Of a stretch of DNA of 46,576 nt, positions 22-46,576 are shown in pieces. Numbering within the stretch: position 1 is the stretch's first letter; the number at the start of each line of letters is the position of its first letter. The notes below the pieces were generated by a model. It was not told the DNA's origin, did no database searches, and saw only the letters and a list, made by a program, of their open reading frames with translations. This DNA comes from a virus: positions 1-46,576 of the IMG/VR virus record IMGVR_UViG_3300020448_000015, one strand, 5' to 3'. Made by a program: the position numbers and the translations under genes.

Positions 22-981
22 TTATAATCCGTTGGGTACTATAATATAATGAATAGCGAGTACTACTCCTACAGATGCACCTAGACCAACCATCATTTTA
101 AGAAAATCTTTTCCAATAAGTGGAAATACCACCTTGAATTTTTCCTTGCCAGTCATAGTTGCCATTGCAAGTTCTCTACCACAAAGTAGACCTACGAACA
201 CCCATGTTGTTGACATAGGAATATCATTTAGTTCTTTGAAGAAGAATAGGATTATCCAATATACACCATCAATGATAGTTGCACTTCGGACATAACGAGT
301 GTTGTGTTTTTCCAGAACGATATTCTGAATCTTACCACCACCCTCTCTAAACATATACCAAAGTCCAGCAACAAATACTGCACTTATGACCAACATTAAG
401 TCCACTGGTATTTCTCTAGGAAGAAACACAGCGATATTTGCCATATCATGTGATAACCATGTCCACCAAAGAAAACCAGTAGTGAACCACTGACCTACTC
501 TCCAATACATCTTGTGTTCTTCTTTAACAGGTTTCGCTTCGTCAAGTATCTTAGTGACACCAATCCATATTACATATGCAGCTACAGCTGCAACTGCATA
601 TCCCATCATTGATTTCATCAACATTTTCTCTAGTATAAACGTAGATGCAAATGCAGATAAAACTAAAAAAGATGTACTTACTGGTACGCCTACCCTAGTT
701 AGTAATAACAGTAGTCCAGGCGCAGCCGCATGATACCACTGTATCTCTTGAAATGGTATTTTGTTAAGTCTACCATACGATATATCACCACCGTACATAT
801 ACCAACCATACCATAATGCCCATAATAAAACAGATGATGCAGCTACCCACATCACCTTCCAATTTACTTTTTCGTTATTTGATGCAATCCATGTACCAAG
901 AGTTTGTACTGAATCGTTTGCGATTACAGAATAGGCAGCAAAAAGAAATCCGATACCCATCCATAGAGTTACTAGTTCCAT
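22..981 (-). CDS. PiT/PHO4-family phosphate permease-like membrane protein (phage-borne metabolic gene)
   Basis: A 319-residue polytopic membrane protein with about eight to nine hydrophobic segments. It carries the internal duplication typical of PiT (PHO4) phosphate transporters. Repeat 1 has ANDSVQTLGT (residues 21-30), matching the family GANDVANAFGT signature, and PVSTS (100-104). Repeat 2 has SHDMANIAVFLP (177-188) and PMSTT (255-259). In the known family these Asn/Asp and Ser/Thr loops bind phosphate and the coupling cation, so the expected role is phosphate uptake across the host inner membrane during infection. It is shorter than usual bacterial PiT proteins (about 400-500 residues). 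Shine-Dalgarno GGAG lies at 990-993, eight bases before the ATG. It is the last gene of the leftward arm and has its own promoter region. The fold assignment rests on motif symmetry; substrate specificity is inferred. Confidence 0.75.
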   Translation of the reverse strand: MELVTLWMGIGFLFAAYSVIANDSVQTLGTWIASNNEKVNWKVMWVAASSVLLWALWYGWYMYGGDISYGRLNKIPFQEIQWYHAAAPGLLLLLTRVGVPVSTSFLVLSAFASTFILEKMLMKSMMGYAVAAVAAYVIWIGVTKILDEAKPVKEEHKMYWRVGQWFTTGFLWWTWLSHDMANIAVFLPREIPVDLMLVISAVFVAGLWYMFREGGGKIQNIVLEKHNTRYVRSATIIDGVYWIILFFFKELNDIPMSTTWVFVGLLCGRELAMATMTGKEKFKVVFPLIGKDFLKMMVGLGASVGVVLAIHYIIVPNGL

Positions 982-1403: not shown

Positions 1404-3773
1404 TTAGAATGACCCAGCCAGAGCAGCTTGTGCTTCTTTATAGGACGATTCTTGATTTCTTAATGGACTTCCAATAACAGTTTTTTGTTGATTGTTATTT
1501 ACTGTATTGTTAGTTGATGTTTTGACGGCAAAATTATTTGTAGAACTATCATTATTTACAGGCCCCATTTCTCGTTCTGCCATTTGACCTACTGCGGCTG
1601 TTTTATTCTGAACAACTCCTGTATCTGGTGTTATATTACTTGATGGGGTTACTCCACCAACTGGCTGTACGCCATTAACAGAATTTACACCATCTGCGCC
1701 AGATGCCCCTGTGGCTCCTGTGGCACCCATTCCTGTTTCACCAGCTGCAGAACTAACAAGGTCTTGTTCTGATTTACTTAGATTCATTACTTCACCAGTT
1801 GCACCATCAACACTTGGTTCTTCACCACCATCTTTGGCTGCATCTTGACCAATACCCATTTGTTCCATTGCATAATCTTTGAGTTGTGCCATTTTAGCAT
1901 TTGCTTCTGTGGGATTTGATATTAAATCTTTTTCATAATCTGTTCCATGTATATCTTTGTACATGTCCTTTGCAACTAAGGCTGCATCAACAGGAAGACC
2001 AGCAACTGAAGGTAAGAATATTCCACCAGCCTCCATAGCTGCACCAGTGTAATCTCCTTTGAATAATCTACCTAATGCAAAGATTCCACCAGCAACTGCT
2101 CCTGCTATCGGTATCATCTTTAGTCCAAACTTTGCACTATTTTTTAAGAATGATTTTGCAAGAACTTTGGGTGCAACTTTAGCTGCCGTTTTTCCTGCCT
2201 TGGATGCCCCTTTAGCTGCATCTAATGTTGTTTCAGCTGCCGTTGCAACTTTCTTTGCAACACTTTCTCCTGGCACACTGGTAATTTTTGGACTTGCAGA
2301 TACCTTTGGTGCATCGGGCATTACTGGTGCTTTGGCAGAAGATACTGGTGCATCAACTTTTGGTTTGAGGTCTGGTGCGTCCATTGGTTTAAGTTTGACA
2401 TCTGGTGCATTTGGGGCTGTCACCTTTGCACTTGGAGCATTACCCAGAATCTTTTTAGTTTTATTTGCAAGAAACCCACCAGTAGCAACTGCAGCTGTTC
2501 CAGCAAGAAGACCACCTCTCTTTAATAAACTTCCGCCACTTTTAAATAAACCACCAGTTTTTTTAAGTGCTCCACCTATCCCTTTTTTAGCACCACCAAG
2601 TATACCCCCAATACCAAGAGCACCAGCGATTCCGCCAATAACATCACCAAGCAAACCACCTTCACCGTCACCAGTTTCTTGGTTTGCAGTAATTGTATTA
2701 TTTTCTTTTAATAAATCTCCTTGTCTTTCAATTTCTTTTAATTGTCTTTGTGCAAGTCGTTTCGCTTCTCTGTCTGCTTCTATTTTTGCGAGGTCAGAAT
2801 TTGCTTGTTCATTAATCATGAACTTTAATAGGTCTCTTATCTGTTCTAGATATGGTGGGTTTTCAAACAATCCTTCTTTTGTTAAATCGTGTAAAGCTCC
2901 ACCATCTTCTACTCCTTCTACTTTTGCTTCTACCTTCTCTGGAGCAGAACTTTCTACAGGAGAATCAACAGGGGTTACTTCTGCTTCTGGTTGTGCGACA
3001 TCAATTCCAAATTTTTCTTGTAGTTCTTCAATTCTTTTCTTTTCTGCTTCTGCATTATCTCTTCGTAATTTTTCTGTTTTTGATTGTTCTATTAGTTGGT
3101 CTTTTAATCTATCGATATAATCTTGTTCATTTATTCCTAATTCTTTTGCCTTATCTACAACTTCTTGTCTTTCAATATTTAATTTTTGTAATGTTTGTTC
3201 ATTAGTAATTTGTTCTCTTAATACTGAATACTCTTGTTCTTGTTGCTGTTGAGCAGCCGTAATTCTTTCTTCTCTTTCAATTTGTTCTTGTCTTTGTTGT
3301 TTCTTTTTCTCTCTACTTTCATTAAACTTATCACCAATAAATTTTGTTGCTAACATAAGAGCAGGACTATCTGCTAATACACCAGAAGCCACACTTGCAA
3401 TATCAACTGAATTTTCTGATATAGTCTTACCTATCAATTCTTTCGCTCGACCCATAATTGTGGCATTTTGGTTAACTACATTTTCTTGATTATTAAGTAG
3501 ACTTAAAATATTTCCTCTATCTTTTTCGCTTATTCTATCAGATTCAAGTATCTTTTGTTTTAAACTTTTCAAATCAGAACGTGAACTTTTCAATTCTTTC
3601 ACGCTCATCTTGCCTTGTTCTTTTATTAGATTTGAAACTTCATCAAATGCCACATTAGCAGTATCACCTTCCAATGTTCCTGATAGTTTTTCTAATTCGC
3701 CTGATAAATTATTCAGTCCACCATTATATGAACTTAAATTTTCTATTACATTGTCGAGTGATTGAATAGCCAT
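1404..3773 (-). CDS. Large coiled-coil and Gly/Ala-rich tail protein, tape-measure candidate
   Basis: A 789-residue protein. Residues 1-120 are helical with polar spacing. Residues 150-255 are a highly charged Gln/Glu/Lys/Arg coiled coil. Residues 300-360 are a second coiled coil. Residues 371-435 are Gly/Ala-rich and hydrophobic, 445-500 are Pro/Ala/Lys-rich, and 545-605 contain another hydrophobic segment. The C-terminus is Asn/Thr/Gly-rich. Long helices plus membrane-active Gly/Ala segments just downstream of the gp26 frameshift pair match the usual position and make-up of a tail tape-measure protein. T4 gp29 is shorter (about 590 residues). At about 1.5 Angstrom per residue, 789 residues would span about 118 nm. 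The start directly abuts the stop of the 96-residue membrane gene (TAA then ATG), implying coupled translation. An injected inner-virion protein is an alternative. Confidence 0.5.
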   Translation of the reverse strand: MAIQSLDNVIENLSSYNGGLNNLSGELEKLSGTLEGDTANVAFDEVSNLIKEQGKMSVKELKSSRSDLKSLKQKILESDRISEKDRGNILSLLNNQENVVNQNATIMGRAKELIGKTISENSVDIASVASGVLADSPALMLATKFIGDKFNESREKKKQQRQEQIEREERITAAQQQQEQEYSVLREQITNEQTLQKLNIERQEVVDKAKELGINEQDYIDRLKDQLIEQSKTEKLRRDNAEAEKKRIEELQEKFGIDVAQPEAEVTPVDSPVESSAPEKVEAKVEGVEDGGALHDLTKEGLFENPPYLEQIRDLLKFMINEQANSDLAKIEADREAKRLAQRQLKEIERQGDLLKENNTITANQETGDGEGGLLGDVIGGIAGALGIGGILGGAKKGIGGALKKTGGLFKSGGSLLKRGGLLAGTAAVATGGFLANKTKKILGNAPSAKVTAPNAPDVKLKPMDAPDLKPKVDAPVSSAKAPVMPDAPKVSASPKITSVPGESVAKKVATAAETTLDAAKGASKAGKTAAKVAPKVLAKSFLKNSAKFGLKMIPIAGAVAGGIFALGRLFKGDYTGAAMEAGGIFLPSVAGLPVDAALVAKDMYKDIHGTDYEKDLISNPTEANAKMAQLKDYAMEQMGIGQDAAKDGGEEPSVDGATGEVMNLSKSEQDLVSSAAGETGMGATGATGASGADGVNSVNGVQPVGGVTPSSNITPDTGVVQNKTAAVGQMAEREMGPVNNDSSTNNFAVKTSTNNTVNNNQQKTVIGSPLRNQESSYKEAQAALAGSF

Positions 3774-4064
3774 TTACTTGTTACTTTTACTAGACCCTAG
3801 ATACAAACCAAACCAAGCTGCCCCAGCGCCAACAACGATACTGACTAATCCAGATTGTTCTAAATTTGGTGTAGGCAATGTCATAAACCATATTACCACT
3901 TTATATAATAGCACTATGTATGTTGTGATGAATATTCTTGGAAAAATTCTCCAAGAATCTATTGCTTTTGCGAGATGTATTAACCATTGAAATTGATTCT
4001 TAGAAGAATCTACAGTTGAGGTATCAACCTCTAATTCGATATTTACTTTTTTAGTTTCTGTCAT
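3774..4064 (-). CDS. Two-helix membrane protein (holin-like candidate)
   Basis: A 96-residue protein. Residues 1-38 are soluble and acidic at first, followed by two hydrophobic helices at about 40-62 and 71-90, the second being Gly/Ala-rich (VVGAGAAWFGLYLG), and a short basic tail. This size and topology fit small phage holins, but the gene sits inside the tail operon between the gp26 frameshift pair and the tape-measure candidate, so a role in tail assembly or injection is also possible. Shine-Dalgarno GAGG precedes the ATG. Its stop codon touches the next ATG. I recall similar small proteins in marine T4-like phages without a proven function. Confidence 0.6.
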   Translation of the reverse strand: MTETKKVNIELEVDTSTVDSSKNQFQWLIHLAKAIDSWRIFPRIFITTYIVLLYKVVIWFMTLPTPNLEQSGLVSIVVGAGAAWFGLYLGSSKSNK

Positions 4065-4075
4065 GATTACCTCTT

Positions 4076-4264
4076 TTATTTTTTATTTTTTTGACGAGCC
4101 TCTTCCTCACGCAAATATCTCATTAACATGTTTATATAAATCTCTCTCTCCCACGGTAGCATATTTTCAAGTTCCGTCAAACTATATTTATGATATTGCA
4201 TTAATGCGAAATTAGTTTGATATAGGGAGTATAATGTTTCATGATATAGGCTTAGACGAAAAAA
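4076..4264 (-). CDS. -1 frame extension of gp26 (gp51-like / tail assembly chaperone C-terminal part)
   Basis: This open frame lies in the -1 frame of gp26 and runs from the slip site to the stop at 4076. It reads as protein without a break right across the gp26 stop codon: RLSLYHETLYSLYQTNF, then MQYHKYSLTELENMLPWERE, then a charged helical tail. The only nearby ATG (4201) has no Shine-Dalgarno, and the residues before it look equally coding. I therefore infer expression as a gp26 fusion by -1 frameshifting (product about 4076-4980), in the manner of lambda gpG-gpGT. The less likely alternative is a free 42-residue protein from the 4201 ATG. T4-like genomes carry baseplate-assembly gene 51 near gene 26, which this may represent. 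Confidence 0.65.
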   Translation of the reverse strand, partial: FFRLSLYHETLYSLYQTNFALMQYHKYSLTELENMLPWEREIYINMLMRYLREEEARQKNKK

Positions 4265-4980
4265 TCCGTGATTCCTCGCAATTGAAAACTGGTAGACCAA
4301 CCACAATTTTTACATTTGACTTCAGCATTAGTCATTGTAGTTGGCATTGTTGCAAAGAAATTGTTTATTTTTTCGAACTGTTCATTAGTCAATTCTTCAA
4401 GGAACTCTATTACCTTTTCCTTTGAATACTCCTTAACATCATGAGAATCTTCTCCATCATATATTTGCTCTATACAATCTACTACTACATCTAACACTTG
4501 TTCAAAATTATCCATTTTTGAAATAGTAGATAACAATTTAAAATCTGGGTATTTCATAATTAACCCGATTTTGTCAGTTAGTAGAATATTGTTAGTATGG
4601 TCTGCATTATTTTCAATAATAACATTATCAAGATTGATATCAAATCTGATATCAACTTTTTTTGATTCCTGTCCTTCGGGTGGTTCGTGCGTACAGTCAT
4701 GTTTGTAATTCAACTGTAAAATCTTTCCTACAGATTTACTTCTAATATTGACAAACAACCATTCAATATCAAAGGTGGCCAACTTATCTACATTAACAGG
4801 TGTAAGAATACAGTTGGTGATTATTTGTTTTACTGCACGAATTTGTTCATCTTGGTCTTCGCCTTCCTGTGCCATCAGAAGAATTTTTTCTTCTTTTATC
4901 AGGAAGGGTCTGTACTGGATTTTTTGATTGTTCGATGGGAGCGTAAGCTCGTACATCGGCGTATCGATTTTAGGTAACAT
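4252..4980 (-). CDS. gp26: Baseplate hub / tail assembly protein gp26
   Basis: A 242-residue protein that resembles the T4 gp26 family. The N-terminus has the typical LPKIDTPMYELTLPS lead and FLIKEEKILLMAQE (26-39). Residues H94, C96, H98 and C223, C226 could form a small zinc site (HDCTH and CKNC). T4 gp26 is about 208 residues. In T4 it is assigned to the central hub. Its small size, its place upstream of a tape-measure candidate and the -1 frameshift site at its end also match tail assembly chaperones of other phages. The ATG at 4980 follows an AGGAT Shine-Dalgarno, 21 bases after the stop of the upstream gp54-like gene. Confidence 0.8.
   Translation of the reverse strand: MLPKIDTPMYELTLPSNNQKIQYRPFLIKEEKILLMAQEGEDQDEQIRAVKQIITNCILTPVNVDKLATFDIEWLFVNIRSKSVGKILQLNYKHDCTHEPPEGQESKKVDIRFDINLDNVIIENNADHTNNILLTDKIGLIMKYPDFKLLSTISKMDNFEQVLDVVVDCIEQIYDGEDSHDVKEYSKEKVIEFLEELTNEQFEKINNFFATMPTTMTNAEVKCKNCGWSTSFQLRGITDFFV
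4258..4277 (-). promoter_or_regulatory. Programmed -1 ribosomal frameshift signal
   Basis: On the minus strand the heptamer T TTT TTC (4264-4258) is in the gp26 zero frame (GAT TTT TTC GTC TAA) and fits the classic X XXY YYZ slip pattern. An internal Shine-Dalgarno-like GAGGA (4277-4273) lies eight bases upstream, an arrangement known to promote -1 slipping in the E. coli dnaX gene. The gp26 stop follows two codons after the slip. No strong downstream hairpin is visible; the following sequence is A/T-rich. Confidence 0.65.
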
Positions 4981-5001: not shown

Positions 5002-5841
5002 TTATCCAATGAGATTTCTAATCCCACTGGAAAGGTTTGCAAAGCTACTTCTAACTGTTCTATTTACATCAGAAAAGGAACTAGTAGCACTTTCAAATTC
5101 AGCTCTTCTTTGTTCAATATTACTTGGTATGTTCGACATAATCATAGATTCTGGTGACATAGATTGCATCGCCAGTAATTGGTCAAAGTTAGGTCTAGGA
5201 CTGAATGGTGCTGTTAAATCTACTGGTTGAGTAACAGTAGATGATTGTGGATTTGGTTGTTGTGGGTTTCCAACTTGACCCATATTTGCACCAGACCTAG
5301 TATGATATTCTTGAGACCATTTAGTATATGCAAATGTTATTTGACAAGTCGCTGGAGCTTCTGCCTCGTAAGAATACGCAATTTGACCTATCTGGATAGG
5401 AAATGCATCTAGAAAACTACAAGTAAAAACAGATTGTCCTGTGGGGTCGAATGAATGAAATTTTGCATCTATTGTATACATATTTGCATATTCAACTAAT
5501 GCATCATTATAACCAATAATGTGGTCAACCCATTTGGTGAAATAATTTCTTTCTCTGGCATCGTCACTTAACATCACGGTAAAATTTAAATCTTCGTATA
5601 ATGTTGCATATGGAGATTTTCTAAAAGGCCCATAGTATTTAACTTCAGATGTTGCTAATTGTTTTCCAGGCAACTCAAGTGACGATACTCTAACTGCAAT
5701 TTGTCTCAAGTCGTTTTGGTCTCCACCAGCCAGAACAGGGGGTGCTGGTATTTCCATCACATACTTGTTAGGTATCATTACTCCTTGTTTATTAATTGTA
5801 GATATAAAAGATGATGGAGAAAACTGGTCTTTATCTAACAT
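5002..5841 (-). CDS. gp54: Tail-tube initiator gp54-like (tail-tube fold) protein
   Basis: A 279-residue protein. Residues 20-175 show the alternating beta pattern of tail-tube proteins, with elements seen in the C-terminal part of T4 gp54 and in gp19: SSLELPGKQLA (53-63), then YEDLNFTVMLSDD, the RNYFTKWVDHI helix, and a closing CQITFAYTKW strand. Residues 185-279 are Pro/Gln/Ser-rich and probably flexible. gp54 sits on the gp48 cap and starts tube polymerisation. T4 gp54 is 320 residues. The start lies one base after the upstream stop (TGA-T-ATG) with GAGAGG upstream. A plain tail-tube paralogue is the main alternative. Confidence 0.65.
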   Translation of the reverse strand: MLDKDQFSPSSFISTINKQGVMIPNKYVMEIPAPPVLAGGDQNDLRQIAVRVSSLELPGKQLATSEVKYYGPFRKSPYATLYEDLNFTVMLSDDARERNYFTKWVDHIIGYNDALVEYANMYTIDAKFHSFDPTGQSVFTCSFLDAFPIQIGQIAYSYEAEAPATCQITFAYTKWSQEYHTRSGANMGQVGNPQQPNPQSSTVTQPVDLTAPFSPRPNFDQLLAMQSMSPESMIMSNIPSNIEQRRAEFESATSSFSDVNRTVRSSFANLSSGIRNLIG

Positions 5842-43487: not shown

Positions 43488-46400
43488 ATGGCATTACCTT
43501 TTGATATTCTAACACGAATTGTAGTAGATAAAGTTCGTGAAAAACTACAAACTAACAATAGAATTTCTTCTTCTGAAACTGAAGTTTCGGAACAGTCCCT
43601 TGTTGAGCTTACAAATCTTGTTCAAGAAAAATTTGAATTAAAACTTAAAGAAAGTTTAACTGAAACTTTAAGTGATGAAACAAAACTCCAACAATTAATA
43701 TCAGAAAAAGAAACTGAATTAACCAGTGTCATTCAATCTGCATTTGATGATATAAAAGATGAAATAAAAGAATCATTATTTAATGAAATAAAAGAGTCTG
43801 AATCTCTTAAAGACTCAAATTTTGCAGATACCGTAGAAACATTATTAACTTCTGCACTAACATCAGCAGAAACCAGTGAAATACAATCAACTCAAAATTT
43901 GGTTACTGGAGAGTCTACAGAGACTATATCTGCTCAGGATATAAGTGTTGGGGAGTCTACAGAGACTATATCTGCTCAGGATATAAGTGTTGGAGAGTCT
44001 ACAGAGACCGTAGCGACTCAAAATATAACTACTGGTGAATCTACAGAAATAGAATCAACACAGAACCTTGCCTCTGCTGAGTCTACTGAGACTGTAGCTA
44101 CACAAGACTTAACTTCTGCTGAGTCTACTGAGACTGTAGCTACACAAGACTTAACTTCTGCTGATATTGTAGAAACTCAATCAGTACAAAATCTTGCATC
44201 TTCTGAATCCACAGAAACGGAAGCAACACAAACACTAGTTCCTGCTGAATCTACAGAAACTACGTCAACTCAAGATATAACTTCTGCTGAGTCTACAGAG
44301 ACTGTATCAACCCAAGAATTGTCTACAGGAGAAACGACAGAAACTGCATCTGTTCAAGATTTATCAGCAGCTGAAACATCAGAAACTGAGAGTACTCAAG
44401 CTCTTACATCTTCTGAAACATCTGAAACTGAAACTTCTCTCACCCTGGCCCCAGCAGAATCTACTGAAACTGCATCTGTTCAAGATATAACTTCTGCCGA
44501 GTCTACAGAGACTGCATCAACTCAAGAATTGTCTACAGGAGAAACAACAGAAACTGCATCTGTTCAAGATATAACTTCTGCCGAGTCTACAGAGACTGTA
44601 TCTACGTTAGAATTTACACAAGATGAATCAGTAGAAACTGTATCTGTACAAGAATCTATTTCAACAGCAGAAGATAAAGATATCGTTGCAACAACTGCTG
44701 TAGAACAGGAAGAAACATCAGAAGTTACGACTGAAACAAATTTAACATCTTCTGAAACATCAGAACAAATAGACTCTAATCCTATACAGTCAATTGTTTC
44801 TGATATTCTTGACAGTACATTACAACAAGTAGCTGCTAATATAGAAGAAACTATAGATTCCATTACTCAAGAAATAGGTAATTTTGTTGAAACAGAAATT
44901 ACATCTGCTCTATCGACATTTACTGAAGATACCATTGAAGATACTTTAGATAAAATTTCAGCACAAGTTACTGAACAAGATACTACCACTGAAATTCAAA
45001 CTTTAAATATATCTGAAATAGAAGATGCAGTTGCAACAGCACTATTGGAAGGTATAGAATCTGAAGCCATAACAGAACAACAATTTTCTGAAGATAAAAC
45101 CATTGATACTCTTCTTGATATCGGTTCTGAGTCTCTTGCAGAAAAACTATCAACCACCTTAATAGGACAAATACAAGAAAAAGAAATATCCTCTCTAATT
45201 TCCCTTGCAGTAGGAGAATCTTTAGAAACTGTTACTACCACAGAAAAACAAACAGCATTTGATTCTGTAGTGGATTCTATTCTCAATTTAGATAGTGCAG
45301 AATCTAGTGAGGTAGAATCTATACTTCAAATATTAAAGGCAGAAACATCTGAAGACGTTGAAACTTTTGCACAAGAGATTGCAGATATTACAAGTGGAGA
45401 AGGTCAGGCAGATATAATAGACGAAGCAACAACTTCTGCTGATGGTGCTGAATTAATTACTGATGAAACTAGTCAAAGTGCATCTGGTGCTGAATTAATT
45501 ACTGATGAAACTAGTCAAAGTGCATCTGGTGCTGAATTAATTACTGATGAAACTAGTCAAATTGCATCTGGCGCTGATACTATTACAGATGAAACAAGTC
45601 AAACAGTATCTGGTGCAGAATTAATTACTGATGAGACTAGCCAGACAGTTGCTGGTTCTGATACAATAGGAGATGAAACAAGTCAGACAGTTGCTGGTTC
45701 TGATACAATAGGAGATGAAACAAGTCAAACTGCGTCTGGTTCTGATACAATAGGAGATGAAACAAGTCAAACAGTATCTGGTGCTGATACAATAGGAGAT
45801 GAAACAAGTCAAACAGTATCTGGTGCTGAATTAATTACTGATGAAACAAGTGCTGTTCCTACTGGTGAGTCTCCACCTTTACCAGAAGTAGGTGCATCAA
45901 CTTCTGTTCAAGAATCTAGAAGAGATGTCTCTTCTGTCGATGCATCAATTCAAACAGAAGAAACTGATATATCATCTGCTGAATCTGGGGCCCAGACAAC
46001 TAGAGCAAGAAATTTAAGTTTATCTACTGATTCTCCTTCAGAAACGGCAGAAAACTTATCAATAGAATCACAAGGACAAACATCTCAAGCAAACAACTTA
46101 AGTCTTGATATCGATAGTTCGAATACTCAAGCAAACAACTTAAGTCTTGATATCGATAGTTCGAATACTCAGGCAACAAACTTAACTCAAGAGACAGATG
46201 CACCAACTACTCAAGCAAATAATTTGAGTATTGAAACTGATTCTTCAAACACTCAATCAAATAATTTAAGTATTGATGCAGAGATATCTTCTACACAGGC
46301 TAATATAGCGTCACTCGATATTGACTCTTCAAATACTCAGGCGACAAACTTAAGTCAAGAAACTGATTCCTCAAATACTCAAGCAAATAATTTAAGTCAA

Positions 46401-46576
46401 GATACTTCTCTCGCAGATTCACAGGCAAATAATTTAAGTCTTGATATTGATTCATCTAATACCCAAGCAAATAATTTGAGTCAAGAAACGGATGCCCCAA
46501 GTACTCAAGCAAATAATCTAACTCAAGAGACAGATGCCCCAAGTACTCAAGCAAATAATCTAACTCAAGAGACAGA
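43488..46576 (+). CDS. Very long acidic repeat protein, three families of 14-residue repeats (partial, open at window end)
   Basis: The frame from the ATG at 43488 (AGGA upstream) stays open for 1029 codons to the window edge, so the C-terminus is missing. Residues 1-126 are helical with charged residues. Residues 127-392 hold about 19 copies of a 14-residue unit of type AESTETVATQDLTS. Residues 393-649 are non-repetitive, helical and acidic. Residues 650-789 hold 10 copies of type TVSGAELITDETSQ. Residues from 838 hold at least 13 copies of type TQANNLSQETDAPS. All three classes have the same period and a Ser/Thr-Gln pair or similar anchor. The repeats are almost free of Lys and Arg. It is probably a long fibre or a decoration protein. 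No known family is recognised. Confidence 0.7.
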   Translation, partial: MALPFDILTRIVVDKVREKLQTNNRISSSETEVSEQSLVELTNLVQEKFELKLKESLTETLSDETKLQQLISEKETELTSVIQSAFDDIKDEIKESLFNEIKESESLKDSNFADTVETLLTSALTSAETSEIQSTQNLVTGESTETISAQDISVGESTETISAQDISVGESTETVATQNITTGESTEIESTQNLASAESTETVATQDLTSAESTETVATQDLTSADIVETQSVQNLASSESTETEATQTLVPAESTETTSTQDITSAESTETVSTQELSTGETTETASVQDLSAAETSETESTQALTSSETSETETSLTLAPAESTETASVQDITSAESTETASTQELSTGETTETASVQDITSAESTETVSTLEFTQDESVETVSVQESISTAEDKDIVATTAVEQEETSEVTTETNLTSSETSEQIDSNPIQSIVSDILDSTLQQVAANIEETIDSITQEIGNFVETEITSALSTFTEDTIEDTLDKISAQVTEQDTTTEIQTLNISEIEDAVATALLEGIESEAITEQQFSEDKTIDTLLDIGSESLAEKLSTTLIGQIQEKEISSLISLAVGESLETVTTTEKQTAFDSVVDSILNLDSAESSEVESILQILKAETSEDVETFAQEIADITSGEGQADIIDEATTSADGAELITDETSQSASGAELITDETSQSASGAELITDETSQIASGADTITDETSQTVSGAELITDETSQTVAGSDTIGDETSQTVAGSDTIGDETSQTASGSDTIGDETSQTVSGADTIGDETSQTVSGAELITDETSAVPTGESPPLPEVGASTSVQESRRDVSSVDASIQTEETDISSAESGAQTTRARNLSLSTDSPSETAENLSIESQGQTSQANNLSLDIDSSNTQANNLSLDIDSSNTQATNLTQETDAPTTQANNLSIETDSSNTQSNNLSIDAEISSTQANIASLDIDSSNTQATNLSQETDSSNTQANNLSQDTSLADSQANNLSLDIDSSNTQANNLSQETDAPSTQANNLTQETDAPSTQANNLTQET
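43866..44663 (+). repeat. Class A 42-bp repeats (about 19 units)
   Basis: Units of 42 bp encode variants of AESTETVATQDLTS. Units at 43908-43949 and 43950-43991 differ by a single base, as expected of recent duplication. Other units differ by several codons. Confidence 0.85.
45435..45854 (+). repeat. Class B 42-bp repeats (10 units)
   Basis: Ten consecutive 42-bp units encode variants of TVSGAELITDETSQ and TVAGSDTIGDETSQ. Several neighbours are near-identical at DNA level. Confidence 0.88.
45999..46576 (+). repeat. Class C 42-bp repeats (at least 13 units, continuing past the window)
   Basis: Units of 42 bp encode variants of TQANNLSLDIDSSN and TQANNLTQETDAPS. The first two are diverged; those at the window edge are nearly identical, so the array continues to the right. 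Confidence 0.85.

Follow-up and report, generated by a model that had tools for sequence, protein, structure and literature searches.

Two versions of a tail assembly helper are very probably made from gp26 and a gp51-like -1 frame in an uncultured marine T4-like phage

In the T4-like phage studied here, an uncultured marine relative represented by a 46,576-nt stretch of DNA (the window), two versions of one tail-assembly helper, short and longer, are very probably produced. The gp26 gene ends just behind a slippery heptamer, and a gp51-like frame continues in -1 past its stop codon (Table 1). Taken together, gp26 and this extension are read as a tail assembly chaperone pair of the lambda G/GT type made by programmed -1 frameshifting, a reading to which a probability of roughly nine in ten is given (0.88). 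By analogy with lambda, gp26 would be the short chaperone. A minority of ribosomes at T_TTT_TTC would slip back one base, both Phe tRNAs re-pairing on TTT TTT, and pairing of the GAGGA element with 16S rRNA may aid the slippage. These ribosomes would then read past the gp26 stop codon for another 60 residues, and a 301-aa long form would result. As for gpG/gpGT of lambda, the tape measure protein would be coated by many copies of the short form and a few of the long one, the added tail would recruit tail tube subunits, and both forms would leave before the tail is finished. In T4 the same two proteins would come from two genes, gp26 and gp51, the latter a gp26 paralogue with the same tail.

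Table 1. Features of the gp26 region in the window, with the basis of each assignment.
Feature	Positions	Strand	Basis
gp26 zero-frame ORF (putative TAC-N, lambda G-like short protein), 242 aa	4252..4980	minus	PF12322, phrog_150, AlphaFold2
Slippery heptamer T_TTT_TTC, in the zero frame, 10 nt before the gp26 stop	4258..4264	minus	read from sequence
Probable stimulator GAGGA (Shine-Dalgarno-like), 8 nt ahead of the heptamer	4273..4277	minus	sequence; anti-Shine-Dalgarno pairing peak of relatives
-1 frame extension, gp51-like (putative GT-specific C-terminus), 60 aa + stop	4076..4258	minus	phrog_634 match; pN/pS 0.17
Predicted frameshift product gp26-gp51, 301 aa	4076..4980	minus	slip conservation, selection, T4-type gp51 alignment
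Tail tube protein gene, directly upstream of gp26	5002..5841	minus	phrog_45 tail tube, E 3.5e-33
Protein of 96 aa, encoded between extension and 789-aa protein	3774..4064	minus	phrog_10198, unknown function, E 1.5e-23
789-aa protein, candidate tape measure	1404..3773	minus	position and composition (inferred)

The product of gp26 covers the full PF12322 (T4_baseplate) domain with its residues 8-241 (E 1.2e-59; 202.1 bits, cut-off 24.5) and matches the baseplate hub family phrog_150 (E 2.8e-62); its AlphaFold2 model has a pLDDT of 90.9. On the minus strand the gene closes with ...TTG CGA GGA ATC ACG GAT TTT TTC GTC TAA, the stop lying at 4254-4252. An earlier note, made from the letters alone, had seen a TTTTTTC in the zero frame just before this stop, a GAGGA eight bases upstream of it and a -1 frame that reads on as protein, and each of these observations was borne out. 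Relative to gp26 the heptamer (4264-4258) is phased as X_XXY_YYZ, as tandem -1 slippage requires, and it precedes the stop by ten bases; the GAGGA is found at 4277-4273. After the slip the -1 frame reads RLSLYHETL...NKK up to a stop at 4078-4076, and these 60 residues match phrog_634, the baseplate hub assembly catalyst gp51 (E 9.7e-25). A second match of theirs, to positions 238-277 of phrog_150, the profile of the gp26 family, suggests that in some proteins of this family the tail is part of a single chain. Of the 15,068 codon positions in the genes of the window, four carry an in-frame T_TTT_TT, and the one in gp26 alone is adjacent to a stop.

Relatives were gathered from annotated phages and IMG/VR contigs, and 105 loci carry the extension behind gp26 in the -1 frame; a mixed gp26 alignment used for collecting distant relatives held no stretch conserved enough. 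With gp26 identities from 98% down to about 20%, the relatives include cyanophages, KVP40, Sinorhizobium phiM12, Caulobacter Cr30, Pseudomonas Astolliot, Methylophilales phage Melnitz, a Nitratidesulfovibrio phage and an Aeromonas phage. The earlier note had proposed a comparison of gp26 regions as the check on its idea, with loss of the slip site behind a retained -1 frame counting against it. An in-frame T_TTT_TTN was found at the join in 101 of the 105 loci, and the four exceptions (Kuja, D524, K364 and Klebsiella phi1_146029, all Ackermannviridae-type) keep a weaker T-run, CTT_TTT, CTT_TTC or ATT_TTC, at the same place. This conservation is far beyond chance. When the 101 loci were grouped into 75 clusters at 85% identity, the codon preceding the slip was seen to differ (AGT, GAT, AAT, TCT, GCT) while its final base was always T, and an internal Phe-Phe of the same protein (motif FF..MP), taken as a control, has the T_TTT_TT pattern in just 4 of 53 clusters. 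Moreover, in seven loci the stop right behind the slip is gone and gp26 ends about 7 codons later, with the slip site kept.

Several loci in this collection deserve separate mention. The gp26 3′ ends of seven Ackermannviridae-type loci (L022, L025, L026, L028, L125, L126 and L128) have CTT_TTY or ATT_TTC in place of T_TTT_TTC; in those traced (L022, L025, L026, L028 and L126) the frame of the -1 extension stays open past the gp26 stop, and in some records the extension is unannotated. Aeromonas phage P19 (L023:2699-2866) likewise has an unannotated -1 extension with TTTTTTC behind gp26. The gp51 of another Aeromonas phage, Aeh1, was reported missing (PMC3037559) and may be the same annotation oversight. 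One IMG/VR contig (L083, 440-560) appeared to break the rule with a +1 relation, which is due to a deletion of the end of its gp26; it probably reflects an assembly fault or a defective phage and was set aside.

Further support for a ribosomal event came from the sequence upstream of the slip. Among the relatives, pairing with the anti-Shine-Dalgarno peaks sharply around position -12 relative to the slip (mean -5.1 kcal/mol), and the share of clusters with pairing below -4 is 69% at the peak vs 16% in the control interval; a conserved Gly of the encoded protein imposes part of this signal. For this reason the GAGGA element is described as a probable frameshift stimulator. The stimulator of E. 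coli dnaX is located close to the same position, -12. A downstream RNA structure acting as stimulator was also looked for, and no consistent signal was obtained across the 75 clusters (mean z -0.8). The two frames could instead be joined by RNA polymerase slipping on the T run, which counts six or seven T and in some relatives seven or eight. This explanation is very improbable, as most relatives have exactly six T, a length that is short for slippage by bacterial polymerase, and the run always keeps the X_XXY_YYZ phase despite a varying preceding codon (AGT, GAT, AAT, TCT). The Shine-Dalgarno-like element, at the distance expected of a ribosomal stimulator, also speaks against it.

That the extension is a protein, probably translated as the continuation of gp26, is indicated by its pattern of substitutions. 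Over 1106 pairs, the extension region has a pN/pS of 0.17 when read in the -1 frame, against 0.93 for the gp26 frame and 2.5 for the remaining one, and the -1 frame is thus under selection at the protein level. Conservation sets in with the very first codon behind the slip (R in 83 of 101 loci, followed by I/L/V and later by L/F and H), and an internal start further on would lose these residues. In deposited GenBank records gp51 is annotated as a gene of its own with varied starts, and it could accordingly be a separate small protein with a weak start inside or after gp26, or one made by translational coupling, which can reach stop-proximal starts that have no Shine-Dalgarno. The loci speak against this at several points. 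No start codon is conserved, many of the annotated starts would remove the conserved residues just behind the slip, and in 36 of 101 loci a stop closes the -1 frame no more than 12 nt upstream of the slip, which leaves little or no room for an upstream start there. A functional ribosome binding site for the short protein, which the earlier note had named as evidence that would tell against frameshifting, did not emerge in most relatives either: a start backed by a Shine-Dalgarno is absent in 72 of the 75 clusters. In the window the candidates are TTG at -42, TTG at -36 and ATG at +63, all of them lacking a Shine-Dalgarno. The same note had called that ATG the only one of the frame; it is the first after the slip and does lack a Shine-Dalgarno, but "only" was loose, as further in-frame ATG codons follow within the extension from residue 33 on, and another ATG, located upstream, meets a stop immediately. 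Since a separate gp51 would also leave the conserved heptamer and the T4-type fusion gene unexplained, it is regarded as having only a slim chance of being correct.

The T4-type phages provide a natural control for programmed frameshifting. In these phages gp26 and gp51 are separate genes in opposite orientation, and gp26 is followed by gp25. The C-terminus of their gp26 often still reads ...EFF, with codons such as GAA TTC TTT, and the slip site, when looked for there, was absent. The slip site thus accompanies an out-of-frame tail and is missing where the long form is encoded separately. T4-type gp51, of about 250 aa, matches PF12322 with residues 1-201 (E 1e-55); hhalign pairs gp26 with gp51 at 98.4% (E 1e-14), and predicted helices and strands follow one another in nearly the same order in the two. 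Its last ~45 residues align with the -1 extension (hhalign 93.6%, E 2.1e-7; reversed control, E 0.36). Judged by these profile alignments, T4-type gp51 is a paralogue of gp26 carrying the same C-terminal tail, and the predicted frameshift product of the window accordingly can be aligned to this gp51 over nearly the full length (99.3%, E 8.8e-21). It might be that the gp26 family ancestrally makes its long chaperone by frameshifting, that the T4 lineage lost this through the gene duplication leading to gp51, and that the Ackermannviridae retain the -1 extension behind a degenerate site (CTT_TTY or ATT_TTC), where slippage would mainly involve a single tRNA. This history is tentative and stands somewhat on the doubtful side.

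The lambda gpG/gpGT proteins and other tail assembly chaperones were reportedly treated by Xu, Hendrix and Duda in 2004. In lambda, V comes before G/GT, and the window has the same order, a tail tube gene directly upstream of gp26. As in lambda, a short protein is accompanied by a product of -1 frameshifting near the 3′ end of its gene (minor in lambda, predicted here), and a large protein is encoded just downstream. Unlike lambda, the slip site is T_TTT_TTC rather than G_GGA_AAG, and the short protein is longer and belongs to PF12322, with its chaperone function proposed by analogy. The large protein, of 789 aa, has an N-terminal coiled coil and a Gly-rich hydrophobic middle. It matched no tape measure family and gave a single 9% match in 50,697 phage records; its position and composition make it a candidate tape measure protein. 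In the relative Caulobacter Cr30, the downstream gene carries the annotation tail tape measure protein, and it has a match to such a family (E 3.5e-9). A Foldseek search of the PDB with the gp26 model returned 69 matches, none significant by E-value. Among the matches listed, by far the highest probabilities were those of 2OB9 (HK97 gp13; 0.63, rmsd 2.7 over 61 columns) and 3FGX (Rbstp2171; 0.60), both with E > 1. Both proteins have been described as phage tail assembly chaperones (PMC9603447). The less confident model of T4-type gp51 (pLDDT 80) gave no chaperone match in a structure search, and searches of solved structures with gp26 or gp51 sequence profiles found no credible relatives. The likeness to lambda G/GT raised in the earlier note therefore draws support from the two-protein layout, the upstream tail tube gene, the tape-measure-like protein downstream, the Cr30 gene and the weak structural match.

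The frameshift could also be real with both proteins serving assembly of the baseplate hub only, and not as chaperones of the tape measure. The T4 tape measure, gp29, is a hub component itself, which speaks against such a restriction. The gene order of tail tube, protein pair and large coiled-coil protein, the family match of the annotated Cr30 tape measure gene just downstream and, as relayed by citing papers, the published identification of these proteins as chaperones (Vladimirov et al., 2022) make a role restricted to the hub unlikely. In its favour, the similarity to known chaperone structures is weak, and from genetics T4 gp26 and gp51 are known as factors in the assembly of the hub and not as chaperones of the tape measure (PMC3004832).

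The chaperone interpretation is very probably not new. The earlier note had regarded the link as seldom stated for T4-type hub genes, a view that gives way to work which, according to two citing papers, named the T4-like tail assembly chaperone genes gp26 and gp51 (Vladimirov, Gautam and Davidson, 2022, Virology 566:9-15; via PMC10885494 and PMC12846349). The first of these, on PRFect, cites it for T4-like phages with a short gene and a fused long gene in place of frameshifting (PMC10885494), and the second credits it with poly-T slip signals in T4-like chaperone genes (PMC12846349). As far as these citations go, the genes of the window are very probably the same, and chaperone frameshifting in T4-like phages had very probably been published; the window, of low novelty, is then an added example of that idea, from an uncultured marine relative, while in T4 itself a separate gene supplies the long form. 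A 2016 review had described the G-T frameshift as widespread "except T4" (PMC5009743). In the Vandenendeviridae and Andersonviridae (phage Adele, PMC12846349), the short and long chaperones are likewise linked by a -1 shift on a poly-T stretch, in a system that differs from the window in its GTTTTT motif and its phage families.

Annotation lags behind, as none of the gp26 genes in the annotated records examined is marked as joined to the extension. The gp51 of cyanophages and marine vibriophage was found to lack the first ~200 residues of other gp51 proteins, frameshifting not being mentioned (Sullivan et al., 2010; PMC3037559). These "short gp51" genes of cyanophages and KVP40 are the same -1 frame extension behind gp26 as in the window, annotated as an independent shortened gene, whereas the present reading has gp26 supply the missing residues by way of the frameshift. 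The "shortened" gp51 of cyanophages and vibriophages would then not be truncated, its first 200 residues coming from gp26, and many deposited genomes would carry a mis-annotated gp26/gp51 pair. Likewise T4 gp51, an essential hub protein whose function was long unknown, would be the long chaperone expressed from a separate gene. The slip site may further offer a simple handle on the short-to-long ratio in a contractile-tailed phage.

Two other parts of the window were noted. Beside the baseplate and tail genes, positions 22-981 (minus strand) encode a 319-aa protein with many hydrophobic segments and no PHROG match. At the other end, a large ORF of 42-nt tandem repeats (43488-46574, plus strand) is open at the contig end. 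Its 14-residue units are rich in Ser, Thr and Glu (e.g., ESTETASTQ, GADTITDETSQTVS and LSLDTDSSNTQANN) and fall into at least three successive repeat types, and the product is possibly a fibre-like or adhesin protein.
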